This document shows, piece after piece, positions 18,769 through 50,305 of a stretch of DNA of 54,888 nt; positions within the stretch are counted from its first letter, which is position 1, and each line of letters begins with the position of its first letter. The stretch spans positions 1-54,888 of the IMG/VR virus record IMGVR_UViG_3300008110_000120. The stretch is one strand, 5' to 3'. The notes under the pieces were generated by a model that saw only the letters and a list, made by a program, of their open reading frames with translations, made no database searches and had not been told where the DNA came from. The translations under genes were made by a program, and so were the position numbers. Source of the stretch: a virus.

Positions 18769-20346
18769 TTAATCAACTTCCCAAATAAGAGAAGTATTAG
18801 TTGCAGTAACGTTAGATGCTTTTATTGCTAGAGAAATATTACTTCCAGGAGAAACTACAATTCTGTAACTACTCAAATCAATATTTAATGAACCACTACT
18901 AGGTATTGCATAAGATAAAATAGGAGTATTAGTAGTTTCACTTATAGTTCCATTTTCTTCTGAAACCAGTGCAATTGAATTTCCTCCTGGTTGAGTTCTA
19001 AAAATATGAGAACCTGTTGCTAAAGGAGCATCTAGAAATACAAAGACTTCAGCAGGTGCTTGCCCACTATTAAATGTCCCACTCAACCCTTTCATAATTA
19101 TTTCTCTTGAATTAAGTACTCCATTATTTGTAGTTGGGTTTTGAACAGTAATTAAATGATTTACTACGTTTGCACTTAATCCTGCAGTACTTCTAAATGT
19201 GGAACTTGGATATACATTTTGAACAATTTTACCCTCAACACCCATCATTAGGGATGCTCCACAAACAGCAGCAGTTGAAGCAATACCAACACCACTTAAA
19301 TTTGCGGCAGCATATCCAATTTTAAATGATGGATTATCTACCCAAGGAGTGGTATGTTTATTGCTATAATGGGCATGATGAAAGAAAATCATATCTCCAT
19401 TTATTGGATTTTCTATAGCATATCTTTGCTCACCTGCACCCAACCAGCGATAATTGATTTGGAATACATTTAATTTTGTTGTATCTAAAGTAACTCCAGA
19501 TGGATTTGATGTCCCACCAACACCAGTCAAATTATCAAGGTTCCAATCTTCCTGATATGTCCATTCTTCTGTAGCAACTTTACCAGATTGAATGGTTGTA
19601 AATGTTCCTACTGCTCCTGTTGTTCCTGGTATAAATTGAAAATTACCTGTCTGCGGACCAACTGAATTTGCTAAAAATATAATTGTATTATCTCTTTGGT
19701 CTGGAATGTGAGTTGCATATGAAGTACTGAATCCCAATTTTGCTGCTGTTGCCGATGTATCTGCAGAATCATTTACAAGAGATACACTATAAGAAGTTCC
19801 ATTTAAAATAACTGTTGAAATTCCGGAAGAACTTGCTGCAGTTGTAATAGTAAGTTTTCTAATTTCTGCTTTTGTTCCATACTGACGAAGAATACCAAAT
19901 TTTCCATTAGTATTAAATCCAACTTGTAGTGCAGATTCTTGACTAAAAAAACCTGCTCGTAAAGTTACTCCTACAGTAGGATTGATAAAGTGTGCAGTAA
20001 ATCTAGCAACTCCACCTTGTCCCGGTCTGTACCTTAAAAATCTCTTTGAACGAACCACACTATATCCATATGCACTTGTTCCAGTTTCTGCAACAAATAA
20101 ACTATTTCTTGTTGTTGCTATTCCACTGGTAAATGAATATGTTTGAAAACTGTTTGTTGGAAGACCATAGATTGGGTCCAACTGAACTACGGGAGTGAGT
20201 TCAGAAACTGCATATTCACCAAAAGCACCTCTACCAGTAGCACCTTCGCTTATAATATTTCCATACTGGTCAGCCTGGATATAAACCTCATGCAGGGTTC
20301 TTTCCTGATTCAAATAATCTTGTTGATTCTTATTCCATTGTGCCAT
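18769..20346 (-). CDS. virion structural protein, 525 residues
   Basis: Begins MAQWNKNQQDYLNQERTLHE. It is a beta-rich, Ser/Thr/Gly-rich protein with FEYAVSELTPVVQLDPIYGL-like opening segments, SKRFLRYRPGQGGVARFTAH and YHFHH-like aromatic patches (MIFFHHAHYSNKHTTPWVDN). The pattern suits a fibre or head-surface protein. It lies between genes 16 and 17, where T4 has nothing comparable. Conserved in cyanomyoviruses as an unnamed structural protein as far as I recall. No enzyme motif is visible. Confidence 0.88.
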   Translation of the reverse strand: MAQWNKNQQDYLNQERTLHEVYIQADQYGNIISEGATGRGAFGEYAVSELTPVVQLDPIYGLPTNSFQTYSFTSGIATTRNSLFVAETGTSAYGYSVVRSKRFLRYRPGQGGVARFTAHFINPTVGVTLRAGFFSQESALQVGFNTNGKFGILRQYGTKAEIRKLTITTAASSSGISTVILNGTSYSVSLVNDSADTSATAAKLGFSTSYATHIPDQRDNTIIFLANSVGPQTGNFQFIPGTTGAVGTFTTIQSGKVATEEWTYQEDWNLDNLTGVGGTSNPSGVTLDTTKLNVFQINYRWLGAGEQRYAIENPINGDMIFFHHAHYSNKHTTPWVDNPSFKIGYAAANLSGVGIASTAAVCGASLMMGVEGKIVQNVYPSSTFRSTAGLSANVVNHLITVQNPTTNNGVLNSREIIMKGLSGTFNSGQAPAEVFVFLDAPLATGSHIFRTQPGGNSIALVSEENGTISETTNTPILSYAIPSSGSLNIDLSSYRIVVSPGSNISLAIKASNVTATNTSLIWEVD

Positions 20347-20348
20347 AA

Positions 20349-20669
20349 TTAATCAGTCCAAGTTAATCTTTCTGGTTGATATCTTTGTGAGTTTTTGATT
20401 TTTAAAGTGTTTGTGTTGTAAGAAGTTGGATAGAGTTGATGAACTATTGCTCCAGGATATTCGTCCTGAAGTTGTTCAGCGAGAGCATTCTTATCCATCA
20501 TTTTACCCTCAACTTCTAATCTATACATCTTACCTTCCCATACCACATCGGCAATGAAAGATTCTCCAACTGGTTCTGATTGATTATCTGAACCATTAAT
20601 ATAAAGATTGCCGTTAAAATCGCCTGCAATATTAACGCTTTCTGAAATAAACTGATTAAAGGATTTCAT
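20349..20669 (-). CDS. small protein with capsid-targeting-like N terminus
   Basis: A 106-residue protein beginning MKSFNQFISESVNIAGDFNG. The first eleven residues follow the T4 internal-protein leader pattern (MK-[ST]-[FY]-x-x-F-I-x-E), with I-S-E before Ser11 as a possible gp21 cut. The body is beta-rich (NLYINGSDNQ, FIADVVWEGKMYRLEVEGK). The C-terminal part is basic and polar. It sits two bases from the genes on both sides. A packaged head protein is inferred. Confidence 0.8.
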   Translation of the reverse strand: MKSFNQFISESVNIAGDFNGNLYINGSDNQSEPVGESFIADVVWEGKMYRLEVEGKMMDKNALAEQLQDEYPGAIVHQLYPTSYNTNTLKIKNSQRYQPERLTWTD

Positions 20670-20670
20670 T

Positions 20671-21954
20671 TTAGTTACAGTTCCAGCGACGGAGAGCTTT
20701 GTTGATTCTTGAATCTGGATCTCTTGCAGTTTCTGCAGATGTAAGTTTGTCTTTCATCCCAGACATACGACTACAAAAGTTTTTACGACGATTTGCTCTC
20801 TTACCACTTGGATTCTTTTCAGTTACTGCAGTTTGTAATTTAGAACCAGGATTTTCGCGGCGATATGCTTTAACTGCAGCAGGACTTAGACCATCAGTTT
20901 TATCTTTGCGATTTACTGACTGCCAATCTTCGGCAAATTCTTCCCTCCAGTTTGAATATAATTTTTTCTCACCAAGAAGTTTACTGCCAATTCCTTTACT
21001 TGGTTTTAAAGATTCTGGTTTAATAATATCAACAAATTCTGCATAATGATTACCATGTGCATCCTCAATCGAAATTGATTCTGGGACACAGTTTGGAACT
21101 TCTTTATCACCTTTCATTTTTGTTGGGGGATTTCCTAGTTTTTTCCCACTCCAACACTTACTTGCGCCAACATTTTTACGTGCCTTCTCAATTCCCTCTT
21201 CTATATCAGTTTCCTCAATATTTAAAGTTTTTGGGTATCCTTTTTCGCCTGGTTTTGCCGGTCTTTCTCCACGCTTTCTTTTGGCATGAATGTTATGCCA
21301 GAGACCTTTTTCTTCTTCATCAATGGCATTTGATTCTGAAACTTTATTATCACTTGACAAATATTCAGCAGCTGTTGTGATAAAGTCAGCAGCTCTTGTT
21401 ATTTTTGATTGCACCCAAGCTGGAAGTTGCTGATCTGGTTTTTTAATAATTTCTCTTAATATTTCAATAGATTTTTCGATGGCATCTAATTCAATTTGAG
21501 CCATGTATCCTTCTTCATCTTTTATTTTTCCTGAAGCGATTTCTTTGTGATCTTCAGGAAGTAATTCCTCGTTTGCCGGATGAACTGTTGCAATATTGTA
21601 CTTCATTTGATTTAATGATAAAGGCTCTCTAGCGTACCTTTCCCACATTGTAGGTCCATATGAACAATCTTCTTGGGTTTCAAATTTTCTGCATAACCTA
21701 CAAAATTTGGTTTCACCAATTTGTTCAGTTTTTGGTGTTTTTTCTACTTTTTTTAATTTTGTATAATAATCTGGAAATTCATCAATATGTTGAAGTGCTG
21801 TAATTTTTGCAGAATTTGGATCTGTAGTATGCTCCCCTTCTACCTTTGTTCCCATTCGGACTTGCTTTTCAATAACTTTCAGGGAAACTTTATGTTTTTT
21901 GGCAAGTTCTTCTGGAGATTTATAAGATTTTACAGGGCCTTTGGGATCTCTCAT
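20671..21954 (-). CDS. multidomain hypothetical protein (DUF5661-like N terminus)
   Basis: A 427-residue protein that looks like several small phage domains joined. Residues 1-70 (YKSPEELAKKHKVSLKVIEK, HIDEFPDYYTKL) resemble DUF5661. A possible zinc cluster FCRLCRKFETQEDC follows near residue 85. A basic region (GLWHNIHAKRKRGERPAKPG) comes next, then ARKNVGASKCWSGKKLG. The C-terminal domain has LSPAAVKAYRRENPGSKLQT, NFCSRMSGMKDKL and DPDSRINKALRRWNC, as in small proteins of many phages. It lies beside small terminase gene 16. Function unknown; a head or DNA-associated role is only a guess. Confidence 0.88.
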   Translation of the reverse strand: MRDPKGPVKSYKSPEELAKKHKVSLKVIEKQVRMGTKVEGEHTTDPNSAKITALQHIDEFPDYYTKLKKVEKTPKTEQIGETKFCRLCRKFETQEDCSYGPTMWERYAREPLSLNQMKYNIATVHPANEELLPEDHKEIASGKIKDEEGYMAQIELDAIEKSIEILREIIKKPDQQLPAWVQSKITRAADFITTAAEYLSSDNKVSESNAIDEEEKGLWHNIHAKRKRGERPAKPGEKGYPKTLNIEETDIEEGIEKARKNVGASKCWSGKKLGNPPTKMKGDKEVPNCVPESISIEDAHGNHYAEFVDIIKPESLKPSKGIGSKLLGEKKLYSNWREEFAEDWQSVNRKDKTDGLSPAAVKAYRRENPGSKLQTAVTEKNPSGKRANRRKNFCSRMSGMKDKLTSAETARDPDSRINKALRRWNCN

Positions 21955-21968
21955 CTACCTATTTTAAT

Positions 21969-22388
21969 TTATTCTTTATTATTTAGAAAACCTTGTTTAA
22001 GTAATTTTGATAACTCGGAAGTTGATCCCACAAAAACCGCATTATTTGTAACGTTATTGGTTGTTTTTACAGACTGGTCTTCAACGTCTTTAACTTTTTT
22101 TTGCAGGTCTATAAGTTTATCAGTGACGTCTCCAACACTTTTTATAAGTTGACCGGCAACTTCATATGCTCTTGGAGATTCGCTTTCACCGGCAAGTTCC
22201 ATAATTCCATTAATTGCCTCTTGCCCCTTTTCTATCAGTGAGTATAAATTTGCTCTAGTATACTCATAATCTTTTTTTATATCTTGTTTTGGTTCTTGTA
22301 TTATGATACTTTCCTCACTTTTTTCTACTTTCACTATTTTACTTTCGATATTTAAAGCACTGTTAATTGATTCATAATTGTCTTTCAT
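21969..22388 (-). CDS. gp16: small terminase subunit gp16
   Basis: A 139-residue helical protein (T4 164). Coiled-coil-like central segments (NLYSLIEKGQEAINGIMELA, KSVGDVTDKLIDLQKKVKDV) are followed by a C-terminal LSKLLKQGF motif. gp16 forms a ring that recognises phage DNA and regulates gp17. The identification combines sequence style with position between gene 15 and the terminase region. Confidence 0.9.
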   Translation of the reverse strand: MKDNYESINSALNIESKIVKVEKSEESIIIQEPKQDIKKDYEYTRANLYSLIEKGQEAINGIMELAGESESPRAYEVAGQLIKSVGDVTDKLIDLQKKVKDVEDQSVKTTNNVTNNAVFVGSTSELSKLLKQGFLNNKE

Positions 22389-22399
22389 ATTAATATCTT

Positions 22400-23200
22400 T
22401 TAAACATCAATTTGTCTAGGTGGACTATAACTTCTAGAATCTGTAAAGTCAGTTATTGTCTCATTAAATCCAAAATCATCATCAGGTCCTGCTGTAATTG
22501 GATCTGGAGTTAAAGTATATCTAACCTCACGTTTTGCATTAGCAGTATCTGTAGATGAATATACATCAACTTGAACTTTTTTAATCAACTCATCAGTAGT
22601 TGCAGAAATTGGACCGAATATATGCGTTTTAGCCATAAAATTTAATGTATATATTAAAATTCTTCTGGTCGAAAAATCACCCTCATAATCATCCTGAAAA
22701 GAAATATTTTCTAGGACAATTGGAATATCCTTTTTTTCCCCAATAGAATCTATTAAGTTAATCGTTATATTAAAAGCCGGTTGAAAAAATGGCAGTATTT
22801 GCTCAACAATTTGAAGAGCATCCTCATTCAATTTTGTCATTATATTTAATTGAAATCCAATATTATATGGAACTGGTAAAAATACTTTTTTAGATTGATT
22901 TCCATCATCTAAAACTTTAAAAGTTTGTGTTACTCCAGTTTTTCTAGACGCATCATATTGTAAAGAAGTCATCTCAAATGACATTCTTGGTAAGGTTATT
23001 TGAATTGATTTATTCAAATCCGGTTGCTGTTCAATTCTAGCAAGAAATTTTTGAGTTGGACCATATCCAAGAGGAACTTTTATGGAACTGATACTATCAC
23101 CATCACCATCTTTATGGCGAATATAAATCTCATTAAATAAATTACCGAACCCTACAACTGTTTTTTTAATTATCTCGTGATAAAAATAAGTTCCTAGCAT
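22400..23200 (-). CDS. gp15: tail terminator / sheath stabiliser gp15
   Basis: A 266-residue protein (T4 272) beginning MLGTYFYHEIIKKTVVGFGN, the typical gp15 opening, with NEIYIRHKDGDG and RIEQQPDLNKSIQITLPRMS following. In T4 the gp15 hexamer caps the tail tube and sheath and joins the tail to the neck. It overlaps gene 14 by one base. Confidence 0.95.
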   Translation of the reverse strand: MLGTYFYHEIIKKTVVGFGNLFNEIYIRHKDGDGDSISSIKVPLGYGPTQKFLARIEQQPDLNKSIQITLPRMSFEMTSLQYDASRKTGVTQTFKVLDDGNQSKKVFLPVPYNIGFQLNIMTKLNEDALQIVEQILPFFQPAFNITINLIDSIGEKKDIPIVLENISFQDDYEGDFSTRRILIYTLNFMAKTHIFGPISATTDELIKKVQVDVYSSTDTANAKREVRYTLTPDPITAGPDDDFGFNETITDFTDSRSYSPPRQIDV

Positions 23201-24594
23201 TAATACGACCCAAATGGATTTCTTTCAGAAAAATCTAAAATAGATAAGGCTTCTGTTTCTATTTCATCATTTTCTGAATATTTATCATAGACATCGAAGT
23301 CATTATATTTTTTAAGACTATAAACTGCAGATGAAGAAGATCCGACGATATTTTCTCCCAAAATAAAAGATTTATTTGTATCAATTCCAACAAAAGAAAC
23401 TTTTAGTATCTTATTTGCAGACATCCATGATTTAACCCTTGCCTTTGTGCCAGATTTTGATCCGATTACTATTTCATTAAACTTATAAGTTCCAAATCCA
23501 ACTATTGTTTCTGGTGGTGCAATTGTTATTATTGGTGTAAATGTATATCCAATGCCAGGATTACTAATTCTTATAGTTGCTATGCCAGAAGAAGTATTTA
23601 AAACACTCGTAAGTTTTGCTGTTATTGCAGCACCAACATTTGGCGATTGGACAGTAACGGTTGGATTTGTTGAATATCCAACCCCATTTATATTCATAAG
23701 TATAGATACAATTCCATATAGATTAGTTTCTATACTACAAGTTATTGCAGCTCCAATTCCTCCCCCACCGGATATAGTAACTTCTGGTGCTACAGTATAT
23801 CCATATCCGGGACTTATGAAAAGTATTTCTTTTATGGAATCAGAACCAGATACTGATGTTGTTATTGCAACTGCTTGCGCCGTTCCTCCCGGCACTGGCG
23901 ATTCTGTAAACGAAATTGATGGCGCACTTGAATAATCATATCCATCATTATTAATATAAATTGATCTAACATATCCAGTATTAATTACCGCAGTTGCACT
24001 AGCAGTGCTTCCAATTCCAGACAGTGACAGTGTGCTAATATATCCATGATCTTGAATAAGAGTATCTAATTCTTCTACAGATGTATCAATAACCTCATCT
24101 TCATATTCAAATAATTCACATTTTACCTCATAAACGTAAGTTTTTCCTAACTGATAAAATGGTTGTTCGTGCTCAACAAATTTAACTTCAAATAATCTTT
24201 TTCCTAAAGGAAAATAAATTAAATCTCCCTCTTTTGGTCTAGTAATTATTTCATAATCACCTTCATCACTATCTGTCAAAAATGGAGATATAAAATCTTC
24301 AAATCTTTCCCTTGAAATTATTAATGTAACCTCATCTCTTAAGCTCATTCCAAATTTTGTTAAAATATCTCCAGCCCCAGTATATCCATCATAATTTGAA
24401 ATATAAGCTTCTAATAAAAAATTATCATCAAATTTTGATGAAGTAACCTCTTTAATAATTGTCTCTTTACGAACGAATCTTCTTGGAATGTAAGTAACTT
24501 CTATTCCATATATTTTAAGTTGTTCGTTAATTAAGTCCTGTACAAGTCTCTGTTCACTAGGAGATCCTTGTTGAAAAAAGGGATTTAGTGCCAT
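23200..24594 (-). CDS. gp14: neck protein gp14 with inserted GxGY repeats
   Basis: A 464-residue protein, against 256 in T4. The conserved part (MALNPFFQQGSPSEQRLVQD, DDNFLLEAYISNYDGYTGAG) covers about residues 1-180 and the last 90. Between them are four copies of a beta repeat: NDGYDYSSAPSISF (216), SPGYGYTVAPEVTI (261), INGVGYSTNPTVTV (302) and NPGIGYTFTPIITI (345), about 43 residues apart. The same repeat occurs in the gp8 and two giant proteins here. gp14 sits in the neck and completes the head; the insert probably forms a surface projection. Confidence 0.93.
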   Translation of the reverse strand: MALNPFFQQGSPSEQRLVQDLINEQLKIYGIEVTYIPRRFVRKETIIKEVTSSKFDDNFLLEAYISNYDGYTGAGDILTKFGMSLRDEVTLIISRERFEDFISPFLTDSDEGDYEIITRPKEGDLIYFPLGKRLFEVKFVEHEQPFYQLGKTYVYEVKCELFEYEDEVIDTSVEELDTLIQDHGYISTLSLSGIGSTASATAVINTGYVRSIYINNDGYDYSSAPSISFTESPVPGGTAQAVAITTSVSGSDSIKEILFISPGYGYTVAPEVTISGGGGIGAAITCSIETNLYGIVSILMNINGVGYSTNPTVTVQSPNVGAAITAKLTSVLNTSSGIATIRISNPGIGYTFTPIITIAPPETIVGFGTYKFNEIVIGSKSGTKARVKSWMSANKILKVSFVGIDTNKSFILGENIVGSSSSAVYSLKKYNDFDVYDKYSENDEIETEALSILDFSERNPFGSY

Positions 24595-24597
24595 TAT

Positions 24598-25437
24598 TTA
24601 CCCGATAAAATCGTAGGGAGGTAATTCATATTCTAATGTCATTCTCTGCTTAATATCTTCAAGTTCTCTTTCAGCATCTTCATACATTTGTCTACCGTTT
24701 AATTCAATTCCACCAGGTAATTTAACACCTTGAAATTTAATTAAATTTTGACCCCATTGTTTTTTAATTAATGCAGTTAAATATTTTTTCAAAAAACTAT
24801 CATTATATACCTTTGTGAAGGCATTTGGATCTAGAGCTCTATAACAATCTATAACTATAAATTTTCCTGCTCTTTCGGAAGCCCAATCAATATCAATGTA
24901 TAATCTATTTTGCCTCTTGTTAAATCTAATTTGTTTATCTGTTGTAAGTAAAAAGTCTATATCTTCCAAATAAGATTTGACCATGGCATATTGTAAAAGT
25001 TCAACCGAATTAAAATAATACAAATCATTCAAAAATAATTGATATTTAATACTAAACATTCCACCTGAAATGGAACTAGTATCAAATTTATATATTTTTT
25101 CTATACCAACTACCGAATCTGGTACTTGAATGTAATTTGAAGATTCATAAAAATTAAAGTTTTTTGTAACGCCATTAATCACACTTGATGAAGAAGTTGT
25201 TGTTATTCCAACTCCACCTGGAGAAATTCCTTTACCTCTATCAATATCTTCTTGGGTAATTTGATACTTGAGATACATTCTTTCAACGCCATCATAATGT
25301 CTTTCATAAAAATATTGAAGTGCATCATCAACTAGATCATCTACTTGATCTTCATCTACGTTTATTTCTAATACCGGAGCACCTAAACGCCTTAAACAAT
25401 AGTCTATTAGTTCTTGTCGTGAGGCTGGTTTTGACAT
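24598..25437 (-). CDS. gp13: neck protein gp13
   Basis: A 279-residue protein (T4 309) opening MSKPASRQELIDYCLRRLGA, the typical gp13 start, with VDEDQVDDLVDDALQYFYER and a C-terminal MYEDAERELEDIKQRMTLEY. It binds the portal after DNA packaging and joins head to tail. A TATAAATA box lies 38 bases upstream of the ATG. Confidence 0.96.
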   Translation of the reverse strand: MSKPASRQELIDYCLRRLGAPVLEINVDEDQVDDLVDDALQYFYERHYDGVERMYLKYQITQEDIDRGKGISPGGVGITTTSSSSVINGVTKNFNFYESSNYIQVPDSVVGIEKIYKFDTSSISGGMFSIKYQLFLNDLYYFNSVELLQYAMVKSYLEDIDFLLTTDKQIRFNKRQNRLYIDIDWASERAGKFIVIDCYRALDPNAFTKVYNDSFLKKYLTALIKKQWGQNLIKFQGVKLPGGIELNGRQMYEDAERELEDIKQRMTLEYELPPYDFIG

Positions 25438-25488: not shown

Positions 25489-25812
25489 TTAATAAGATCC
25501 GCCGTCTAAATCTATATTGCAATTTCTATTCAGATCAGTATCTAAAGCATTGATAAAATCACAAGGTAATCCGGGAGAAATTGGCTCAGTCGCGGCAGCA
25601 ATTAAAACATCATCAGGGTTTACGAATTCATATAACCCCGCTGAAGCATTGAACATTAGGATATATTTATCATTTAAATTTTCAACATCTATATCCCTTA
25701 AATCATTTAATGAATTTGCAATCGAAGATGCTGATACTACCTTTACAACATTTTCGGTGCCTACTCTAGCGCGAATATTTTCGGTATTTACTCTAGCGCG
25801 AATATCGGACAT
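25489..25812 (-). CDS. hypothetical virion-type protein with N-terminal peptide repeats
   Basis: A 107-residue protein starting MSDIRARVNTENIRARVGTE, two tandem copies of the unit IRARVxTEN. A segment LRDIDVENLNDKYILMFNAS follows, typical of phage tail-fibre-associated proteins. The repeat is visible in the DNA as two copies of CTCTAGCGCGAATAT about 27 bases apart, so unit number may vary between phages. It overlaps the 25812-26153 gene by one base. Role unknown; co-transcribed with structural genes. Confidence 0.85.
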   Translation of the reverse strand: MSDIRARVNTENIRARVGTENVVKVVSASSIANSLNDLRDIDVENLNDKYILMFNASAGLYEFVNPDDVLIAAATEPISPGLPCDFINALDTDLNRNCNIDLDGGSY

Positions 25813-35284: not shown

Positions 35285-38200
35285 TCATCCAGTAAGATTA
35301 TCATCTACAGATCCACTGTTATTAAATCCATACCCTCTTCTCTGAATTGTTGGGAAGGTAGATAATCCAACATCAACAGTATACCCACTTATTCCAATAG
35401 ATATAGGATTTTTTCTGACCATAGATGATAGTCTACCCCAAGAAAATTTTCCTAAATTAGATCCAATACTATTAATACCGGCAAGATTTGAAGTTGACTT
35501 AACATTTACTACTATTTCCGCATTAATTCCACTTGCAGAAATTGATGCAACCGTATAAATGTTATTTAAAAATGACGTTCCAATTCCAACAACATCAGAA
35601 TCATTTACATATATTGAAGTTAATCCTGCACCTACTGCTGTATCAAAAATAAGCACAGGATATCCAACATTTAATGTAGCAAAATTAGATACATTTATTA
35701 ACGAATATCCAGATATTTTTAAATTAAATTTAATCCCTAATGGATTTGATCCAGTTCCAGTTGTTGCCGCTATTCCGGTGATTATTCCAGAAAATCCTTG
35801 AACTGAAGCGATGTCAAAAACATTTTCAAAAGAAAATTCTGGGAATGGTGCTATTATTTTTGGTCTATTTGATATGCTATATCCTAATCCAGGATTGGAT
35901 ATAACAATAGGTGTTGAAAGTGATCCATTAACAACCGTTGCAAACGCTTGTGCAGTAGATCCAATACCAGTGTATGTATTTTGTGGAGAAGCTATCTTTA
36001 ACTCCGCCGTCAATCCAGTGTACCCACTTCCACCATTCAAAATCGCAATAGATTGAATTGTTCCGGCAGACGAAACAACGCAAGTTGCGGAAGCTGCAAC
36101 TAAAGACACCTGAGGTATGATCATTGCATTGAAGTCAATTATTTGCACACTAGATCCTGGATCATCTTCTTCATAATTAAAGAATCTGGCATCATCAACA
36201 AAAATTTGATTATCTGCCGCAGATACACTCTTGATTATTTTTGCAGTTGGGTATATTAAAGACTCTAAAGAATTTCTAGATTTATAGAAATATTCTCCAT
36301 TAAAAATTTTATCAGACTTTTGTTTTGTCCAACTTAATGGTTTGTACTTATTAACATCGGTTTCTATTCCCTTCCCAAAATATAAATTTGTTTCAATTTC
36401 GTCAGAAGTTTGAATGCCAACAACAGTTCTTGAATCTTGAGTTAATGATCCCAGTACATAGTTATTTTTAAACATTCGTACAGTGTCACCAGGTTTTATT
36501 GTTTCGACAACGTCCACAATAACTGTATCAATATCTCTAGTTCCTCTGTAAAAGAAGATAGAAATATTATTTTCTGCCTTTGGAGCTTCTGTAAATGCAA
36601 AAGATGATCCACCAGTAAATTGATAAGAGGTTCCTGGATCTTGAATAACGCCGTCTATAAAGATAATTAAAACTGAATTTAAATTAAGAATGGGATCATC
36701 GGTTTCAAAAGTAAGTAGTTCACCTTTATACTTTAAAGGAAATCTTTTTCTAGATCCATTTTGCAATGATTTAATTGAATCCATATAATCTAACTCACCA
36801 AACTGCCAGGAAGAAAATGAATCAGTAAAGATATCAGTTGCAGTTAAAGTAAAATCAAATACTGGAGAAGCAAGTCCTTTTGCAGTAACTAGACCCACAG
36901 GTTTAAATACATCTCCCAGTTTAAATCCATAACCAGGTCTAGTAATTTTAAATGAAGATACTTGGAAAAGTGTTGATCCTATCCCAACATTTTCTGAAGG
37001 GGATACCTCAAGATTCATTAATAAACCAACTCCAGTTTCTGTTGTAAGACCAACTCCTATTCTAGAAACTCCAACCACAGAAAGATTCTCATATGTTGGT
37101 TCGGGAATGATTATAGATGGATTTGCAGAATATCCAGTTCCTCCAGATACAACAGTAAATCCTGTAATTGTTCCACCCGATCCAATATTAGCCCGTATAA
37201 CTGCAATATTTCCAGTATGACCAGATTGAGTTACTCCTATCGAAACCTGACCATAATAACCCGAACCGAGATAATCAGAACTGCCTATGGATACTCCAGT
37301 AATTGATCCACTACTAATTGAAACTCTATTAGACCACGAGGTTAGGGAGGCACCGACAAGAGGTGCAAATCCCAACCCTGGAGTTGATCCCAATGAAACA
37401 ATAAGACCATTACGAGGAAGTTGATTTTGATTAACATCATAGTCTGAAATTATGATCTCACTATTTGTTGAGGTTATTCCAGTAAAAACAACTTTAGTTT
37501 CTGATCCAACTTCGGTAAAGAAATAATTATTTCCTGCATTATTTTCAGTTGTTGGAGTTTGGAATATATCATTGATGAATAATAAACTATTTCCAGTTTC
37601 AATGCCGGTTGTATTAATCCCCTGGACAGTCAATGTCATTGTTTGACCAATTCCAGTAAACTGGGATGAAATATCATCATATAGTGTGTTTGTTACATAA
37701 TCCTGTCTCAAAAAGACCCGACCATTAAATTTTGATTTAATTATTGGTAAATTTGATGGAGTTTCATCTAAACTATTTTGACCCTTAGGTGGAGATATGA
37801 AATGTAGTCTACTTTTAACAATATCATATGCTCCAGTATAGACTCTAACCTCTGAAGAATCATTATGAACTGTTGCTGCACTACCCAAAACTGCTCTAGA
37901 AACATAAACAAGATTATATGTTCCAATTCCAGTTATTTCTGAGGATGTGGATGTTCCAATACCAACTCCAATAACTTCAACATATTCATCATCTATTTTT
38001 AAAATAGATTTTGGAAATATCGTGCTAATACCAGTTAAAGAGAAAGTTGTTGCAGATCCAGTTATTTGTCCACCATTGTAAATAAGATTATGTGAAACTG
38101 GAGACCATTTAATAGGACTCTGGACCACTCCATCTAAAGATATAACTGTTTTTGATAACTTTTTAGTCATATCTAATTGATGAGCATTTCCAGATGCAGT

Positions 38201-41200
38201 ATCTGTGAAAGTAACTCCTATACCAAGATCTGCAAAATCAGATCTAGTTGAAATTCTAAACTGATCATTGGTTATCTTTATAGCATATACATCTGATGGT
38301 AAAATGGTTGTAACAAGTCCAACCGAATTTAAAGTTGCACCTATGCCTAATGGTACAGGTAAAGAACTTGTGAAGGTAGATGCGGGTGTATAAACTAACT
38401 GTTCTCCGGTATTGAAAAAGTGATTTTTGATCGTAAATATTCCAGTAGAAGGATCCAAGACTGTGGGATTATTTGGATTAAATGTTTTTGTAAATATTGG
38501 AGTTCCATTAAATCTCACATCAAATGAACTTTTATCGTATCTATTTCCGTTAATAGAATCGAAGAATCTTAAATAGAAAGATTCTCTAACATTGCCATAT
38601 TCTAAAGATTCTGGATCACTTAATTCATCATAAAGATAATAGAACATTTGATTATAGCTTTGAATTTTCATTTCTCCGGTATGAGAAGGATCTGGATAGA
38701 AATACATATCCATTGTAGATCCTCCATCTACAGATCCAAATGTTCCTATTCCCAAAGTACTACCAATTGATAAAATTGGATATTGTTTAACAATAATATC
38801 CCCATTTCCAGATCTTATCATCATAACCTGATGCATTGCAATTGTATTTCCAATGGAAACTTTAACCAAAGATTTAATACTTGAAATTTCTTCTGTGTTT
38901 ACTGACAATACTGAAGTTGATCCAGAAGAATTGACATAATTTGATTGTAATCTGCAGGTTAATTCATCACCATCTGGTTGACCAGTTGATTTGAATCTAT
39001 AAGTAGAGATTCCCAAAGAAGTTGATCCAAATCCAACGAGCTTACCTCTAATTAATAAATTGTCTGAAGTAATATTGTCACATTTCAATGTTAAAACGCC
39101 AGAAGATATTGTTGAAGTAAATGTGCCAATAAAGTTGCTGGATAATTGTTCTTCTGTTGTGTCAAAATAGTATTCGGACATGTAACTATTTGTACCATCA
39201 TGTGTTACATATAAATCAACATAATTAGCCTCACTACTATCAATATTTAAAATTTGCAAACTTACATATAATGCACTGGTGTCTGCGGTGTTTACGGATA
39301 AAATAGATGCCGTTGACCCAACACCCACACTGCTAGTACTTCCATTTAAATTAATAAATCCTATACTTTGAGTTCCAATTCCAACATCAACGGATGAAAA
39401 ATTTGTTTTTAGAACTTTTATATCAAGATCAGTATTATAAGGGTCTGTAGGATCTAAAGATATGGATTGCTCCCCACTACTATCAACATATCCATAAAGA
39501 TTACCAAGAACATTGCCTCCAGAATAAATGGAAGATTTTTCTAAAGTAAATATATTTTTATCACCATCGGTTAAAGTAACCAATTCCGAAAACTGAATAT
39601 TTCCACTATTTGGGTCCTTAATTTCAATTATAAAATTAGCAAAATTTTCATTATAATCAACTAAATCTACTGTAGTTGAAGTATTTGATTGCCTATTATC
39701 TAAATTTGAAAATAACGGACTAATATCATCTATTTTTAACGCTAGATTGGAGATGCAATTAATATAATTAGTTAATCTCTTAGTTTTAAATCTAATAAAT
39801 CTAGATATATTTGTATTTTCAGCAACATTGGTATCTAAAGTTAAATCAAAATTATTAATAGTATCAACTCTATTTTCTTCAGAAATATCTAAAACAATCG
39901 TTGAAACTGTTTCCCCTGGTTCTTGATCAAAAGAAGTTGAAGAACCTGAAACTTGAACATCTGCAAAGTTCTTTAATCCAATTGGATGAAGAAGTTGATT
40001 TACTGGTCCGGATAATTCATCATATGTTTTAGAACTTCTAACGGAATAAGAAAGATTTTGGAAATAATCATTATTTGGTAAAACTTGATATTCTTCATTT
40101 AATTTACCAGTATCTTTTTCCCAATCTTTATTTTGCTTTAAAGAATAATTAATTTCTAAAAGACCTGCATTTGAATTAATATTACTAATGGTTGCCAGAA
40201 CTCCAGTTAATTTTCCTTTAATTACGTCACCAACTTTTAATTGATCATATGTTCCATCAACTTTAAGAACATCTGCATCAAGACTTATAACTCTTAAATC
40301 AATACCGACAAAAGAAGAACCTTTTTTTAATAGTAATTCTTCATTATTGACAAAGTTTGCAACTTCCTGATAAACTTTAAATTCTGGATAATTTTTTTTA
40401 TTGACGATATTAGCGTTTGGTGAAAAAGTTATTGCTATTCCGGGGTTTACAGTTAAATCTGCTAGATCAAATTCCAATAATGCTGGGCTAGATGGGATAT
40501 AATTAGTAACTGTAAAGAATTTGTAATTATAATCTTTTGAATTAAACCCTGTGCCGGTTGTACCATTTTTTAGAATCCCCTCCACAAAAATTTCATCACC
40601 TATTGAAAATGGTGCAATATTAAATCCTAATACTGGAGTAACCAATGTGCATGTAACCACTGTCGATGCATTACTAATTTCTGAAATGGATATACCGTTA
40701 GTATTATTTTCCGTGTAAAGTTTATGGTTGACAGAACTCAATCCATACGGAATTTCAATAATTTCTACAGAACTAATAGAAGATGAAGATAATTTTGGAA
40801 CCAAATTGCCAGAATTAACAACTATATTGTCATATGGATCAAATATAGTAATAGAAGGTGAAGAAAGATAATTTTTTCCTCCATCCAGCACTTCAATAGA
40901 AGTAACCCTATTTACATTTTTTAAATTTAAAATAGGTGGGATATATGCGTCAGGTCTAATAGATTTATCAACTGAATATTCATATCCTTGATCTATGACC
41001 GTTACTTTTTCTAATTTTCCTATCGAAGATGATTTTAATTCTATAGAAGCATCAAATCCATTTTCAGATTCAATCTTTTCAAAACTAGGAATTTTTTTGT
41101 ATCCATATCCACCATAAACGATTGATATATCAGAAATTCCACCAGTGCTATTTTTTGATAGAGTAGAATATCTTAAAGAATCGCAATCGCTTTGAACATA

Positions 41201-44200
41201 GGATAATTTTTCAGGAATACCGTTTAAAGTGATGTAAAATTGTGTGCTTGCAATACCAACAGAAGTAATTCCATAATTTCCATTATATAAACTATTTTCA
41301 AAACTTATTCTTGATGAGTATTTAATGTCCGGATCGGAACGTAAAGTGCGGTTGGTCTTTTCTAAAGAATAATATAAAAATTGTGGTAGATTGGCAGAAT
41401 AATTGATCGTTACTGAAGCGTCCGAAGAAATACCAACTGAACCAACCCCAACAACATTAAATTCATTTTCGGTTGGGGAAGATATGTATTCTTTACTGAA
41501 CTTCTCATCATAATAGATTTTAAATTGATATCCATTTAAAGATGAATCACTTAAGTCAAAGAATAAATTATTATTTTTATAACTCTTTAGTGGTGGGTGA
41601 ACTAAAGATAAACTATGGAGCGTCCCACCAGTTGATGAAAAATTAACAAAATTTGGCGGATTAGATGTAACATCGACAAGAGTTTCACTCAACTTCAATG
41701 TATCATCATCTACTCTATAGACAAAGTAATTTGTTGTTGTTAATCCAGAAATATTACTTCCAATATCCGAATTATAGTAAACTTTATCACCAGTTACAAA
41801 CCCATGATTTAATATTTGTATTTCATCACTTGATACATTTACATTAGAATTAGTAAAAAATTGAGGATTCGCAACAATCTGATCTAAATCATTTTTATAA
41901 AATATTTTAACAGATGAAGAAGATCCATAACCAACAGTTAGATTAGGATTAACTTCCAATCTAATTATATCATTTGATTCTAAATTATGTGATGTCGATA
42001 ACGAAACTAATGATTTTATCTTTGATACTGTACCTGTTACTTGATTAGAATTGGTTTCAAATGAATATTCGTAATCATACCCATTAGCATTTCCAGTATT
42101 TAAGAAATATATTCCTGCGGTACTATTAACTAATGATTTGGAAGTTACAATTCCTATAGTATCTTTAGTTTTATTGATAACATAAACATCCTCACTAAGA
42201 CCGGAACTCGGCAAATTGAACGGAGAATCTGCAGGATTTTTTGAAACTAGAAATCCAGATAAAGATCCTGCCGGTAAATTTAATGTTACTAAATCTCCAG
42301 TTTGGAATTTGTGATTTGGTAGATATATTGATTGTGTATAAACACTATTAGTTAATGTCTCTTCTCCAATTTGATCTGGTATTGAATTTGAAACCCCACT
42401 TGTGGTTCCTATACCAACACATTTTGAGGGATTGAAATATTCTTTATTGTCAACTTTAGAAGTAAAAAATTTAGTTTTTAATGGGAAAGTAAATCTATTT
42501 GGAACAATTTTAATCTCAGTTTTTGCTGGATGATATGCACTAGTATTTCCTCTTATAACTCGTAATACATTTTTATCTGCAAAAATGTTTAAAACTGTCA
42601 ATTCTTCGTTTTCTATTTTTAGGATAGTATCTGGTTTAATATAATCAATTGCTTTTGAAACGTATATGTCAGTCACTCTTGATGAAGGGTTAAGATCAGC
42701 AAATAAGTAAATTAAATTATTCTCAACACTAATTTTATGATTATTTTGCAATCCATTAATGTAAGTTGATATTCCAGAGATTGTTATAATATCATTATCT
42801 AATAAACTATGATAGGTGGATATAAATCCAGATACTTCTGAAGTACTATTCCAAACAAAAGTAAATGAATTATATTTTTCAACTGTTGTTTGAATTGAAT
42901 TTATATCTCTGCCAAAAACTTCCGAAACTACGGCATTAAATCCCACTCCATCATCATTTTCTTGATTTTTGACAATTATTTTATCTCCTACTTTATAATC
43001 AGATCCAGATTCGGTAATTACAAATGAATCTACTGATCCACTTGAAACTAAATCAACATTTAATCTTTGACTAGCAACTTCATTGGATTCAATTATAAAA
43101 TCATTATCTGCATATTTTTCATTAATTTTATATGGAAATGTATTTCTAATTAAACCTAAAGAATTAATATCAATAGTTTGATCTAATAGTAAATTATCCT
43201 CTACGAATAGAGATCTATAATTATTTCCAATAAAATATGGATATAGAGAAGTGTTTGTTAGTGGATTTCTTGTTGCAAAGTAAGCATACGTTCCATTTGG
43301 GAATTGTGGAGTTTTACACCATCTACCATTATAAACATCAAGATCTTCAGAATCAAAAAATACATAATCTTCGATAAAGAATCCAGTAGAAACCCCAACT
43401 GGTCTATCTGAAATAGCACCATTAGTAATTTTATATCCCGGAACTAATGCTTTTATATCTGATTGTGGATCTTCTGGATCAGAATATCCATACGATCCGT
43501 ATATTGGATTTCCATCATATGCCCATCCAATAATTGGTGAATGTTTAGATCCATCATCATTAAATTCTTCGTTAGCAATGACCGAATCATATCCCAAATA
43601 CCCATACTTGAGATTATTATTTGTATCTACTAAAATTTCATTTCCATATCTTCTAAAACTATCAATACGTAAATCTCTTATTTTTGGATCTAAAAATGCA
43701 CCACTTCCATCAGAGATGACTTGTATTTTGGTATTTGATTCAGTATACTCTCTACCAGAGTCTATAACTACAATTGAAGATATCTTGTTATTTGTAACAA
43801 TTGCCCTTAACTTTGCGCCAAAACCATCACCAACAACTTCTAATCTAGGAACACTATAATATTCCTTTCCGGAGGATTCTATTTCAACCCTCATAATTTT
43901 ACCATCAATTATTACAGGTCTAACCTCACCACCTTTTCCAGATTTAATTTTTATTAGAGGTTTCTTCTCCAAATTAATTATCGTAGATCCATATCCAGTT
44001 CCAGACTCATATACATAAGCATCGACAATTTTTCCGCGAACTATTGGAGTTGCAGTAACTATTCCAGTAAAAGTACCTGCATAAGATACAACGACATCTA
44101 TTTTAATATCTGGATATTTAAAAATGTGATATTCAGAACCAGTACTAGCAAAGGAAACATATTTTCTTCTATCAAAATTTGAAGTATCTTCGGATCCTAT

Positions 44201-47200
44201 CAAACCGGCATCAGATAATTTAAAAGAATCCTCATCTAATTTTGTGATAAAATATTCTCTGGTAGTTGATAGACCAGAAATTCCTACTCCGGTTGAATTA
44301 TATTGAATTAAATCTCCAGTGTTAAAATTATGATTCGTAAATGTAACTTCACTCCTTTGCGTCGATATGCCAGAGGATTTTACAATTAATTTTCTATTCT
44401 GGTAGTTTTCACCTTGATTTACAACTTTAATATATGATAATGTTTTTTTATCTACTGTTCTAAATCTATGATTTCCAAATAAGTTTGTTGTTGTAAATCC
44501 TACCGTATTGACACCGACATTGAAATTTTCTAAAGATTCGTAAAGTTGAATTGTTTTATTATTGATTAATTTGGCGTAGTATGACCCACCATCGACTAAA
44601 GTTCTATTTTGACTTAAATTAGATCCCCCAAAAATTCCAATACCAACATCATTTCCAACAGAACTATAAATTATTTCTTGACCATTTGAAAATTTGTGAT
44701 CTGATGTAAATGTAATAGTTTCGTTTATAATATCAATTCCGCCACCATTTTCAAGTAGTCTCCCATCAAATATTACTTCTCGATATCTAGAAGCCAAAAA
44801 TGGTTGCAAAACACAATTTTTTCCATTGCCACCTACAAGATTAACGGAAATAACTCTTTGGATGTCAAAGTCTTGAGGATCAACTAAAACTTCAGAAATG
44901 GAACCACTAATAACTGGTTGGACAAAACAAGTATTCCCAATAGAAGGTGAAACTTCAACATAGGGTGGATTAATGACATCATAATTACTTCCACCGTTTA
45001 AAACATCTAATGATTTTATTGGTCCATAATAAATTTTATCTCCAGACCTTGCATTGATAATTTCAACCCCATTACACATTAATCCAAGGGTCTTAAGATC
45101 TTTTGTAGAATATTTGTCTCCTAATTGAAAATTTCTAGTTAATGGAAATTTCCTAACAATACTCTGTTGACCAATTTGATTTGATTTTTGTAACGATAAT
45201 GTAAACGTATGAGATCCATCACTTTCAGATAAAGTTGATAATTTAACATAATTAGAAGATCCTATAAAAGATTTAGACTCATATAATTTAATATTATCTT
45301 TAGAAACAACTTCGGCATAATATTCTTTACCTGAAGTTAATTCTGGAATATCCGTTATTTCTGACTGGTATACAATTGCATCTCCAGTTCTAAATGGGTT
45401 GTCCTGATCATCAGTTTCTTTTATTTTTACTGTGGTATATTTTTTGGTTACAGGATCTTGATCATTTAAAAATGTTGATGTTGCATTTTCAATGGTTTTT
45501 TGAATTATATTTTTTTCTATGGTATATGAAGGTAGACCATTGGTGGCAACATAAAAATATTGATCATATTCATTATACACATTTAAAATATTTGAAATTA
45601 ATGCGTTATTTCCAAATTCAATGGGAACATTTGAACTATTTGCTTTTCTTAATTTTCTTCTTAAATCAAAATATCTTCCATAATATGGCTTTCCTGGATC
45701 TAATGAATCAAATGGATCTCCGTTCAAATCAGTTAAACCATTTAAGGAAATTTCCCTATCAACAAAAGTAATAGATGCAACAGTTGCAATATTACTTTCA
45801 GAAGTTACTAGATCTTGTGTCCCCCTAATTAAAATTTCAACTTCATCTCCTAATTTTAAACTAGATTTATCAATATCACTTTCCAATACTAATGTAGAAC
45901 CGGCAATTGATTTTATTTGATATCTTGAACTTGTATTATAAATCCAACTATTTGCAAATATCTGCTTATCATTTTCATCCCTGTTAGGTATAACTTCCCC
46001 AATACTCTTAACTCTTATGTATTCATTTTCATTCAATCCATAGATAGAATTATTTTCTTCAATACCATTAATTACACCAGTAATTCTTAATCTAACTTCT
46101 TTTAAAGTATCTCCATTTTCATATGAAATAACGTATTGATCAATACGAATATCATCACTTGGATTTATAACTTCAGTTATATTTTCACATCCATAAAATT
46201 GATTGAGACTTTTTCCGGAATATTGAATAGTGTTGTTTCCACATATTAATGATCCCGAAAGTGGAAATCCTACTGTACTGTCAACTGAAATTATTTCAGA
46301 TCCGGGTTGAGTTTTTTCAACTACTTTGGTTTTTGCATGAATATCAAATGATCCACTAATTGAAGTCTCCTGGGTATACCCAACAAATAATGAAAGTTTA
46401 TAAAAATATTTTTGCCCCCTCCTAATAATCTCTACATTTGAAACTGCAGCCCGAGATTGGGAATCTATTGAACTATAGATTTCTTGTCCAACTATTTTTG
46501 TTGGGTCTCCAGATAACCTTTCGGCAATTATTATCTCTTTTCTTAAAAATTCTGCGCTGGATGGTTTTAAAAGATATTTTTCCAGATCAATAACTTTAAC
46601 AGATTCGGCATATAAAACTTTAAATAATATTTTAAATGATTCTTCTGTACCTTTACTTTGATAGAAAGATCTTGCTTCCTTTATAAAGTTTGCAGCATTA
46701 ATTTCCCCAGAAAAATCAATATTCTCTAATCCGGGTGTTAATGAATATTTAATCTTATTAAAAAATTCTTTTAAAAATAAAGAACTAAGATTGGTTATTG
46801 TGGAATTGGATGAATGAGAAGAACTTTTTGATGTTGAGAATACTAAATTTTCTGGATCACTTGGATCATGATAATCTGTTACTCCACTAAAACCACGAAT
46901 ACATCCTGTAAATGTATTTGTAGTTATTCCCGTATATGTAATAATTTCATCATCAATCTTAAGCAAACCATATCTTTTTGGAAATCCTTTTGTACTATTG
47001 ACAACAATAGTATCATCGGATAAATCAATACTTTCTTCCAAAGAAGTATTATTAGAAATAACCTCCGGAATTAAGTAATCTAATTTTAAATAAGAACTTA
47101 AATTGTCAAGAATATCAACCGTACCACCGGCATATTCTTGAGAAATATAATATTGTTTTAAAAATTCTGCAGCATTGGGGTTTTCGCTTAAAATAAATTC

Positions 47201-47263
47201 AGGGAGTTGATTGACAACAATATCCTGAATTTTTACTTTTACATCAAAGTTATTTTCTATCAT
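35285..47263 (-). CDS. giant baseplate-region structural protein, 3992 residues (gene 7 position)
   Basis: An uninterrupted 12-kb gene, 22 percent of the window, between genes 6 and 8 where T4 has gene 7 (1032 residues). The first 250 residues (LPEFILSENPNAAEFLKQYY, FYQSKGTEESFKILFKVLYA) look like the conserved baseplate domain. The rest is a mosaic of three repeats: GxGY strands (about a dozen, such as VVSGGTGYSANPSIII), LLKIDDEIITYTG...GCIRG units (at least four), and HxFxTGDxxxY units (at least six, such as NHNFNTGDLIQY). No catalytic motif is seen. Probably a wedge protein with long beta-solenoid arms; gp7 identity is positional. Confidence 0.93.
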   Translation of the reverse strand: MIENNFDVKVKIQDIVVNQLPEFILSENPNAAEFLKQYYISQEYAGGTVDILDNLSSYLKLDYLIPEVISNNTSLEESIDLSDDTIVVNSTKGFPKRYGLLKIDDEIITYTGITTNTFTGCIRGFSGVTDYHDPSDPENLVFSTSKSSSHSSNSTITNLSSLFLKEFFNKIKYSLTPGLENIDFSGEINAANFIKEARSFYQSKGTEESFKILFKVLYAESVKVIDLEKYLLKPSSAEFLRKEIIIAERLSGDPTKIVGQEIYSSIDSQSRAAVSNVEIIRRGQKYFYKLSLFVGYTQETSISGSFDIHAKTKVVEKTQPGSEIISVDSTVGFPLSGSLICGNNTIQYSGKSLNQFYGCENITEVINPSDDIRIDQYVISYENGDTLKEVRLRITGVINGIEENNSIYGLNENEYIRVKSIGEVIPNRDENDKQIFANSWIYNTSSRYQIKSIAGSTLVLESDIDKSSLKLGDEVEILIRGTQDLVTSESNIATVASITFVDREISLNGLTDLNGDPFDSLDPGKPYYGRYFDLRRKLRKANSSNVPIEFGNNALISNILNVYNEYDQYFYVATNGLPSYTIEKNIIQKTIENATSTFLNDQDPVTKKYTTVKIKETDDQDNPFRTGDAIVYQSEITDIPELTSGKEYYAEVVSKDNIKLYESKSFIGSSNYVKLSTLSESDGSHTFTLSLQKSNQIGQQSIVRKFPLTRNFQLGDKYSTKDLKTLGLMCNGVEIINARSGDKIYYGPIKSLDVLNGGSNYDVINPPYVEVSPSIGNTCFVQPVISGSISEVLVDPQDFDIQRVISVNLVGGNGKNCVLQPFLASRYREVIFDGRLLENGGGIDIINETITFTSDHKFSNGQEIIYSSVGNDVGIGIFGGSNLSQNRTLVDGGSYYAKLINNKTIQLYESLENFNVGVNTVGFTTTNLFGNHRFRTVDKKTLSYIKVVNQGENYQNRKLIVKSSGISTQRSEVTFTNHNFNTGDLIQYNSTGVGISGLSTTREYFITKLDEDSFKLSDAGLIGSEDTSNFDRRKYVSFASTGSEYHIFKYPDIKIDVVVSYAGTFTGIVTATPIVRGKIVDAYVYESGTGYGSTIINLEKKPLIKIKSGKGGEVRPVIIDGKIMRVEIESSGKEYYSVPRLEVVGDGFGAKLRAIVTNNKISSIVVIDSGREYTESNTKIQVISDGSGAFLDPKIRDLRIDSFRRYGNEILVDTNNNLKYGYLGYDSVIANEEFNDDGSKHSPIIGWAYDGNPIYGSYGYSDPEDPQSDIKALVPGYKITNGAISDRPVGVSTGFFIEDYVFFDSEDLDVYNGRWCKTPQFPNGTYAYFATRNPLTNTSLYPYFIGNNYRSLFVEDNLLLDQTIDINSLGLIRNTFPYKINEKYADNDFIIESNEVASQRLNVDLVSSGSVDSFVITESGSDYKVGDKIIVKNQENDDGVGFNAVVSEVFGRDINSIQTTVEKYNSFTFVWNSTSEVSGFISTYHSLLDNDIITISGISTYINGLQNNHKISVENNLIYLFADLNPSSRVTDIYVSKAIDYIKPDTILKIENEELTVLNIFADKNVLRVIRGNTSAYHPAKTEIKIVPNRFTFPLKTKFFTSKVDNKEYFNPSKCVGIGTTSGVSNSIPDQIGEETLTNSVYTQSIYLPNHKFQTGDLVTLNLPAGSLSGFLVSKNPADSPFNLPSSGLSEDVYVINKTKDTIGIVTSKSLVNSTAGIYFLNTGNANGYDYEYSFETNSNQVTGTVSKIKSLVSLSTSHNLESNDIIRLEVNPNLTVGYGSSSSVKIFYKNDLDQIVANPQFFTNSNVNVSSDEIQILNHGFVTGDKVYYNSDIGSNISGLTTTNYFVYRVDDDTLKLSETLVDVTSNPPNFVNFSSTGGTLHSLSLVHPPLKSYKNNNLFFDLSDSSLNGYQFKIYYDEKFSKEYISSPTENEFNVVGVGSVGISSDASVTINYSANLPQFLYYSLEKTNRTLRSDPDIKYSSRISFENSLYNGNYGITSVGIASTQFYITLNGIPEKLSYVQSDCDSLRYSTLSKNSTGGISDISIVYGGYGYKKIPSFEKIESENGFDASIELKSSSIGKLEKVTVIDQGYEYSVDKSIRPDAYIPPILNLKNVNRVTSIEVLDGGKNYLSSPSITIFDPYDNIVVNSGNLVPKLSSSSISSVEIIEIPYGLSSVNHKLYTENNTNGISISEISNASTVVTCTLVTPVLGFNIAPFSIGDEIFVEGILKNGTTGTGFNSKDYNYKFFTVTNYIPSSPALLEFDLADLTVNPGIAITFSPNANIVNKKNYPEFKVYQEVANFVNNEELLLKKGSSFVGIDLRVISLDADVLKVDGTYDQLKVGDVIKGKLTGVLATISNINSNAGLLEINYSLKQNKDWEKDTGKLNEEYQVLPNNDYFQNLSYSVRSSKTYDELSGPVNQLLHPIGLKNFADVQVSGSSTSFDQEPGETVSTIVLDISEENRVDTINNFDLTLDTNVAENTNISRFIRFKTKRLTNYINCISNLALKIDDISPLFSNLDNRQSNTSTTVDLVDYNENFANFIIEIKDPNSGNIQFSELVTLTDGDKNIFTLEKSSIYSGGNVLGNLYGYVDSSGEQSISLDPTDPYNTDLDIKVLKTNFSSVDVGIGTQSIGFINLNGSTSSVGVGSTASILSVNTADTSALYVSLQILNIDSSEANYVDLYVTHDGTNSYMSEYYFDTTEEQLSSNFIGTFTSTISSGVLTLKCDNITSDNLLIRGKLVGFGSTSLGISTYRFKSTGQPDGDELTCRLQSNYVNSSGSTSVLSVNTEEISSIKSLVKVSIGNTIAMHQVMMIRSGNGDIIVKQYPILSIGSTLGIGTFGSVDGGSTMDMYFYPDPSHTGEMKIQSYNQMFYYLYDELSDPESLEYGNVRESFYLRFFDSINGNRYDKSSFDVRFNGTPIFTKTFNPNNPTVLDPSTGIFTIKNHFFNTGEQLVYTPASTFTSSLPVPLGIGATLNSVGLVTTILPSDVYAIKITNDQFRISTRSDFADLGIGVTFTDTASGNAHQLDMTKKLSKTVISLDGVVQSPIKWSPVSHNLIYNGGQITGSATTFSLTGISTIFPKSILKIDDEYVEVIGVGIGTSTSSEITGIGTYNLVYVSRAVLGSAATVHNDSSEVRVYTGAYDIVKSRLHFISPPKGQNSLDETPSNLPIIKSKFNGRVFLRQDYVTNTLYDDISSQFTGIGQTMTLTVQGINTTGIETGNSLLFINDIFQTPTTENNAGNNYFFTEVGSETKVVFTGITSTNSEIIISDYDVNQNQLPRNGLIVSLGSTPGLGFAPLVGASLTSWSNRVSISSGSITGVSIGSSDYLGSGYYGQVSIGVTQSGHTGNIAVIRANIGSGGTITGFTVVSGGTGYSANPSIIIPEPTYENLSVVGVSRIGVGLTTETGVGLLMNLEVSPSENVGIGSTLFQVSSFKITRPGYGFKLGDVFKPVGLVTAKGLASPVFDFTLTATDIFTDSFSSWQFGELDYMDSIKSLQNGSRKRFPLKYKGELLTFETDDPILNLNSVLIIFIDGVIQDPGTSYQFTGGSSFAFTEAPKAENNISIFFYRGTRDIDTVIVDVVETIKPGDTVRMFKNNYVLGSLTQDSRTVVGIQTSDEIETNLYFGKGIETDVNKYKPLSWTKQKSDKIFNGEYFYKSRNSLESLIYPTAKIIKSVSAADNQIFVDDARFFNYEEDDPGSSVQIIDFNAMIIPQVSLVAASATCVVSSAGTIQSIAILNGGSGYTGLTAELKIASPQNTYTGIGSTAQAFATVVNGSLSTPIVISNPGLGYSISNRPKIIAPFPEFSFENVFDIASVQGFSGIITGIAATTGTGSNPLGIKFNLKISGYSLINVSNFATLNVGYPVLIFDTAVGAGLTSIYVNDSDVVGIGTSFLNNIYTVASISASGINAEIVVNVKSTSNLAGINSIGSNLGKFSWGRLSSMVRKNPISIGISGYTVDVGLSTFPTIQRRGYGFNNSGSVDDNLTG

Positions 47264-49940: not shown

Positions 49941-50267
49941 TTAACGATTAACCTCACGAAGAGAATAAAAATCCGAATTTAAATATTTTAATATTTCCAA
50001 TGCAATTAAACGTGGATTTCCTTCCCCACAAGTATAAACATCTACTGCCAGACATCCATTTTCTGGCCAAGTATGACACGAAACATGACTTTCTGCAAGT
50101 GAAATAACAATGGTACATCCCTGAGGAATGAAACAATGTGCAAAAATGTTTAAAATTGTCATTTTTGCGCGGGCAATTCCCCTGATCATGACTTCTTGAA
50201 GCGCCTCTGCGTCATTAATTAGGGTAAAATCAACATCATACACCTCTAAAAGAAGATGTTTACCCAT
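49941..50267 (-). CDS. speD: S-adenosylmethionine decarboxylase proenzyme SpeD
   Basis: The start ATG 50267 gives MGKHLLLEVYDVDFTLINDA, like bacterial SpeD; a GTG at 50294 would add nine residues (MKTDLEQFS). The proenzyme cleaves itself between Glu and Ser in ISLAESHVSCHTWPE (E59/S60 from this start), and that serine becomes the catalytic pyruvoyl group. The second catalytic stretch is DVYTCGEGNP. The enzyme makes decarboxylated S-adenosylmethionine for spermidine synthesis. speD is a known cyanophage auxiliary gene; polyamines may help condense DNA. It lies in the accessory operon just before the baseplate genes. Confidence 0.95.
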   Translation of the reverse strand: MGKHLLLEVYDVDFTLINDAEALQEVMIRGIARAKMTILNIFAHCFIPQGCTIVISLAESHVSCHTWPENGCLAVDVYTCGEGNPRLIALEILKYLNSDFYSLREVNR

Positions 50268-50305
50268 TGAAAATTGTTCCAAGTCGGTTTTCACTAAAAA
50301 ATTAT

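Follow-up and report, generated by a model that had tools for sequence, protein, structure and literature searches.

The window is the whole stretch of DNA analysed here, a complete IMG/VR record of 54,888 bases that belongs, judged by its relatives, to a T4-type cyanophage and may be a fragment of its genome. T4-type cyanophages are abundant ocean viruses. Around gene 14 the genes lie in the order 13-14-15-16, as in a T4-type neck (Table 1). The product of gene 14 (gp14) matches the Pfam family T4_neck-protein with 108 bits, the curated cut-off being 25, and a sequence search of the PDB returned T4 gp14 as its sole solved relative. Its nearest named relative is the gp14 of S-SRM01 (Kyanoviridae, Singapore), the nearest complete genome, with 60.8% identity over the full length. 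The first-pass annotation had drawn attention to the size of this protein; the open reading frame and the T4 record confirm 464 residues against 256 in T4. A plus-strand open frame of 127 residues (23552-23935) lies opposite the repeats described below and is probably their by-product. The 107-residue ORF at 25489-25812 carries at its start a 27-base tandem duplication (25750-25805) that gives near-identical 9-residue peptides; the S-SRM01 gene at its place encodes 213 residues and matches baseplate families. Two labels in the S-SRM01 record are swapped: the "tail sheath protein" of 573 residues (19134-20855) is a terminase according to PHROGs, and the "terminase large subunit" of 725 residues (20918-23095) is the tail sheath.

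Table 1. Neck genes of the window and domain layout of gp14 (residue numbers are those of gp14).
Feature	Position	Strand	Basis
Gene 15, tail sheath stabiliser/terminator	22400..23200	minus	PF16724 3.4e-87
Gene 14, head-closure/stopper neck protein, 464 aa	23200..24594	minus	ORF; PF11649 7e-31; phrog_460 2e-127; top fold matches are T4 gp14 structures
Gene 13, adaptor, 279 aa, without the T4 fibritin-binding domain III	24598..25437	minus	phrog_211; 7 of 50 domain III columns filled
Stopper barrel of T4 type, including helix and stopper loop, residues 1-165	24100..24594	minus	alignment; Foldseek 9lu5_M E 1.4e-8; VIA Z 14, model range 1-166
Acidic linker, predicted flexible, residues 166-183	24046..24099	minus	pLDDT <50 at 165-182, short helix drawn there; net charge -7
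Split small β-barrel, first part (putative), residues 184-205	23980..24045	minus	VIA matches spanning 184-432, only ~70 residues aligned
Repeat 1, residues 206-251	23842..23979	minus	repeat HMM and motif anchors
Repeat 2, residues 252-292	23719..23841	minus	repeat HMM and motif anchors
Repeat 3, residues 293-335	23590..23718	minus	repeat HMM and motif anchors
Repeat 4 core, residues 336-371; HMM match to 376, overlapping the next part	23482..23589	minus	repeat HMM
Split β-barrel, second part (putative), residues 372-432	23299..23481	minus	segment HMM measurable in 469 of 490 IMG/VR gp14s
Acidic C-terminal tail ending NPFGSY, residues 433-464	23203..23298	minus	aligned with T4 215-256

We aligned the window gp14 with those of T4 and 18 other phages. 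The stopper loop, at residues 64-87 and opposite T4 89-112 in the alignment, carries no insert and is unchanged in length. The match to T4_neck-protein is confined to residues 3-178, and residues 184-432 constitute a cyanophage-specific β region after the T4-like barrel. The extra residues had been placed between conserved halves of the protein. This description does not hold, since the segment 372-432 has no T4 counterpart and similarity to the T4 C-terminus is limited to the final ~30 residues. This ~60-residue segment is common to cyanophages with and without repeats; with a segment HMM it was absent, among 490 IMG/VR gp14s, from the 15 T4-like ones and from six of the seven S-CREM2-like ones.

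Four repeats of 41-46 residues each occupy residues 206-378 of gp14 (window 23461-23979), the last one ending at 378 when boundaries are cut at motif anchors. Four repeats of about 43 residues had been noted at 216-358; both self-comparison and a repeat-unit HMM, trained on the repeats in an alignment of 60 gp14s, that of the window included, bear them out over a slightly wider span. Ungapped self-comparison gave offset peaks at 84, 43, 45, 86, 41 and 129, and the repeat score exceeded those of all 500 shuffles of residues 185-372. The HMM also gives a weak half-match at residues 187-206. The unit has a core of roughly G-x-G-Y-x-x-x-P, comprises about three strands (DSSP on the predicted model) and is sparse in charged residues (2-12%). 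Divergence is quicker in the repeats, with mean pairwise identities of 0.41-0.60, than in the T4-like barrel (0.78), repeats 3 and 4 being the least conserved segments of gp14 (0.41 and 0.47). We looked for an alternating likeness (first to third, second to fourth repeat) as the mark of a pair duplication and did not see it. In a PHROG scan the insert region also matches families of baseplate and other structural proteins, and weak copies of the repeat occur in the gp8 and gp7-like proteins of the window. The latter kind includes a baseplate wedge-type protein of 3992 residues (35285-47263), about four times the size of T4 gp7, with weak copies near residues 2120 and 3737. An S-adenosylmethionine decarboxylase-type gene (49941-50294) adjoins the baseplate genes.

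The structure of gp14 was predicted as a single chain, from an alignment that included T4-like rows (pTM 0.56). Residues 191-430 have a pLDDT of 82-98 per ten-residue block, with one block at 76, and residues 184-432 are all-β, with no helix. Foldseek against the PDB returned below E 0.001 only five T4 gp14 chains (9lu5_M with a TMt of 0.71). Against predicted viral structures there were 59 matches below 0.001; the 50 listed comprise neck and other phage proteins, many of them nameless. An earlier model from a shallow alignment, in which the barrel was poor and the fold search gave nothing below E 0.06, was discarded. Because VIA alignments of ~70 residues span 184-432, we infer that residues 184-205 combine with 372-432 into a single small barrel, one loop of which houses the repeat array.

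To describe the variation of the array we used 502 IMG/VR loci, at most the best 80 for each of eight queries (the window, six cyanophages and T4). They yielded 490 gp14 frames, of which 469 could be measured; the other 21 are the 15 T4-like proteins and six S-CREM2-like ones. The distance from the barrel to segment 372-432 is 33 residues in 80 proteins, 113-116 in 80, 197-237 in 303 and 294-311 in 5; these class counts are not independent, as the loci found with a query are those closely related to it. The classes correspond to 0, 2, 4 and 6 repeats by the repeat HMM and accommodate 468 of the 469 measured gp14s, a single S-CREM2-like protein (distance 59) lying outside them. None of the 469 has a length that would fit an array of one, three or five repeats. 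In 23 proteins of the 197-237 class the HMM detects just 1-3 repeats; such counts in some S-SM2-like and ACG-2014f-like gp14s are detection failures in arrays of four-repeat length. Among the best 80 relatives of the window gp14, 78 have four repeats and two have six in the larger HMM run; in a smaller run three of them scored five. Named cyanophages carry none, two or four repeats. The array is thus a lineage-wide feature, shared widely among related viruses rather than confined to this window. That its length steps by two repeats is a new observation; a literature search, one query of which was swamped by generic terms, brought up no account of an insert in cyanophage gp14. Because only even classes occur, the real folded unit is probably a two-repeat barrel of ~85 residues.

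On an 84-row tree of the barrel the classes require a minimum of 6 changes, all of them even; six-repeat arrays take part in no fewer than 3, on starred branches. This quick tree places the rows with 0 repeats and those with 2 each on one side of a branch, with a support of 49 for the latter, and does not by itself show which way the loss went. A careful tree of 135 rows does: the 0-repeat rows of P-SSM4 and S-TIM4 are nested within 2-repeat rows (supports 98/97 and 100/95), so this clade probably lost the repeats. S-CREM2, which has none, forms a long branch outside the other cyanophages.

The insert most likely lies outside the head-tail joint, because its bulk would exceed what a channel of T4 size can take and the linker that carries it is predicted to be flexible. 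Assuming a hexamer as in T4, six copies of residues 184-432 would have a volume of ~185,000 Å3 and fill solid 94-148 Å of a channel 50-40 Å wide; the T4 gp13 channel is reported to be 44-56 Å wide (PMC12270204). On this steric estimate, and by analogy with T4, we hold the external repeat arm proposed in the first-pass annotation to be very probable.

We favour the explanation that the array decorates the outside of a familiar neck protein, in variable length, and probably does not carry out a conserved essential job like that of fibritin. In such a scheme gp14 would be an ordinary T4-type head-closure protein whose N-terminal barrel, by homology, closes the channel. Its C-terminal arm, whose T4 equivalent (residues 178-256) docks on gp15 (PMC12270204), would in cyanophages bear a rigid all-β module on the flexible linker, namely the small split barrel with its inserted array of two-repeat barrels. 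Six copies would make a ring of short knobs around the joint, a collar that could loosely touch fibres, the host surface or particles, or lend mechanical support. The array would grow and shrink by whole two-repeat units and be dispensable, since one clade has none. Within the best 80 relatives, however, it is kept at four or six repeats, which argues against neutrality in this lineage, where the array may do something definite. The proposed layout of the neck is concrete enough to test, and the classes of 0, 2, 4 and 6 repeats amount to a set of natural deletions in an appendage of the head-tail joint.

The arm might instead reinforce the joint by wrapping gp15 or the first sheath ring, as proposed for the Milano collar by other means. 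It is embedded in the very region that contacts gp15 in T4, and the C-terminal tail is retained. We nevertheless consider this rather unlikely, given the paucity of charge in the repeats and the low conservation of repeats 3 and 4. Nor, on informal comparison, does array size obviously track the length of gp15: the repeat-less P-SSM4 has a gp15 gene of 1032 bases, and gp15 frames span 198-353 residues in 71 of the best 80 loci. Some of these gp15 frames carry a long insert near the C-terminus, on the side described as contacted by the C-terminal arm of T4 gp14 (PMC12270204).

It had also been suggested that the arm serves the role of whiskers, no wac gene being visible between genes 8 and 13. 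The absence of wac is borne out and extends to the rest of the window: neither PHROG scans of its 27 ORFs nor six-frame scans with PF07921 and phrog_1056 detected fibritin. The same holds for S-SRM01 and 12 other cyanophage records, including S-SKS1, while the T4 positive control was detected; phrog_1056 also matched one control genome, that of Haloferax volcanii, so that a match alone does not prove fibritin. That cyanomyoviruses lack wac had been stated before (PMC2984593); the same account refers to a whiskered cyanomyovirus from St Kilda, as yet unpublished, which would speak for a substitute. S-SKS1, recorded from the North Atlantic, has four gp14 repeats and no fibritin match. The proposed role itself, docking or retracting tail fibres at the neck as T4 fibritin does, found no support. 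T4 fibritin is described as binding domain III of gp13 (residues 190-239), not gp14 (PMC12270204), and this domain is missing here. Among 20 gp13s, a region of domain III size (50-54 residues) is present in T4, Melin, PVA23, JS10 and Astolliot, whereas the other 15 (the window, 12 cyanophages and two Ackermannviridae) have just 7-9 residues there. Fibritin is matched by phrog_1056 in four of the 20 records, those of T4, Melin, PVA23 and JS10. Among the cyanophages compared, the fibritin socket of gp13 is thus missing together with fibritin. P-SSM4, S-TIM4 and the two Ackermannviridae have neither a fibritin match nor gp14 repeats; a whisker-less T4-type phage therefore does not need the insert, which rules out whisker replacement as a necessity. 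Nor does gp14 itself match PF07921 or phrog_1056, and the absence of helix in residues 184-432 of the predicted structure speaks against a fibritin-like segmented coiled coil there. The gp13 of Pseudomonas phage Astolliot (2993-3922) has a domain III-sized region of 51 residues, yet no fibritin match was obtained; an ORF lying upstream (827-1372) shows a weak match to a family of tail collar fibres, and an unfamiliar neck fibre may bind this region.

A further point in favour of a whisker substitute came from the fold search. The best solved match confined to the array aligns residues 210-288 with domain I of T4 gp18 (Z 6.1, r.m.s.d. 3.1 over 74 residues, 19% identity), although VIA Z scores below 8 are common by chance. 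This domain is described as a protruding six-stranded barrel that binds the retracted long fibres (PMC3004832). In profile comparison with domain I, repeats 3-4 and 2-3 scored 23.5 and 20.0 and exceeded all of 60 column shuffles (best 20.2 and 19.6). Repeats 1-2, the structurally aligned pair, scored only 18.5, a value reached by two of the 60 shuffles (best 22.8). The hhalign probabilities of the repeat pairs against domain I were 5-25%, and compared with single T4 proteins repeats 1-2 are nearer the gp14 tail (20.5) than gp18 (14.2). The match to domain I is thus weak and kinship no more than a lead: the profiles of repeats 3-4 and 2-3 hint at it, that of repeats 1-2 does not. Taken with the missing gp13 domain, this makes a functional whisker substitute quite improbable. 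A bolder version would have the two-repeat units be fibre-binding barrels of the domain I type, transferred from sheath to neck in phages that lack fibritin and its gp13 socket, one to three per arm, in a six-arm ring that holds folded-back fibres, their loss in the P-SSM4 clade marking a switch in fibre handling; we regard it as a long shot. That the array is a mobile or tandem module whose copy number drifts without a selected role is very doubtful: array size does vary on the tree and related units occur in other structural proteins, but the steps of two whole repeats and the constancy over deep clades point to selection on the folded unit.

Among known systems, the closest is gp14/Hc2 of other cyanophages (phrog_460; S-SRM01, P-SSM2, S-SM2), which shares the gene, its order, the barrel, the four repeats, the 372-432 segment and the NPFG tail; other cyanophage clades differ by having 0 or 2 repeats. 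T4 gp14 (PF11649; PDB 9mkb, 9lu4-9lu7) has in common with it the barrel, helix, stopper loop, acidic C-terminal tail and 13-14-15 synteny, but has 24 extra N-terminal residues and no counterpart of residues 184-432. Domain I of gp18 (residues 98-188) is about the size of a repeat pair and is the best solved match confined to repeats 1-2; it has an added helix, and the sequence evidence for kinship is weak and mixed. T4 fibritin (gpwac) is likewise a neck appendage, but a separate trimeric coiled-coil protein seated on gp13 domain III, whereas the appendage considered here is a β structure within gp14 itself. The neck fibres of Anabaena phage A-1(L) and the collar of Agrobacterium phage Milano are also neck appendages other than fibritin; as described, they are separate proteins on, or forming, 15-fold rings, and in this they differ from an arm that is part of the stopper.
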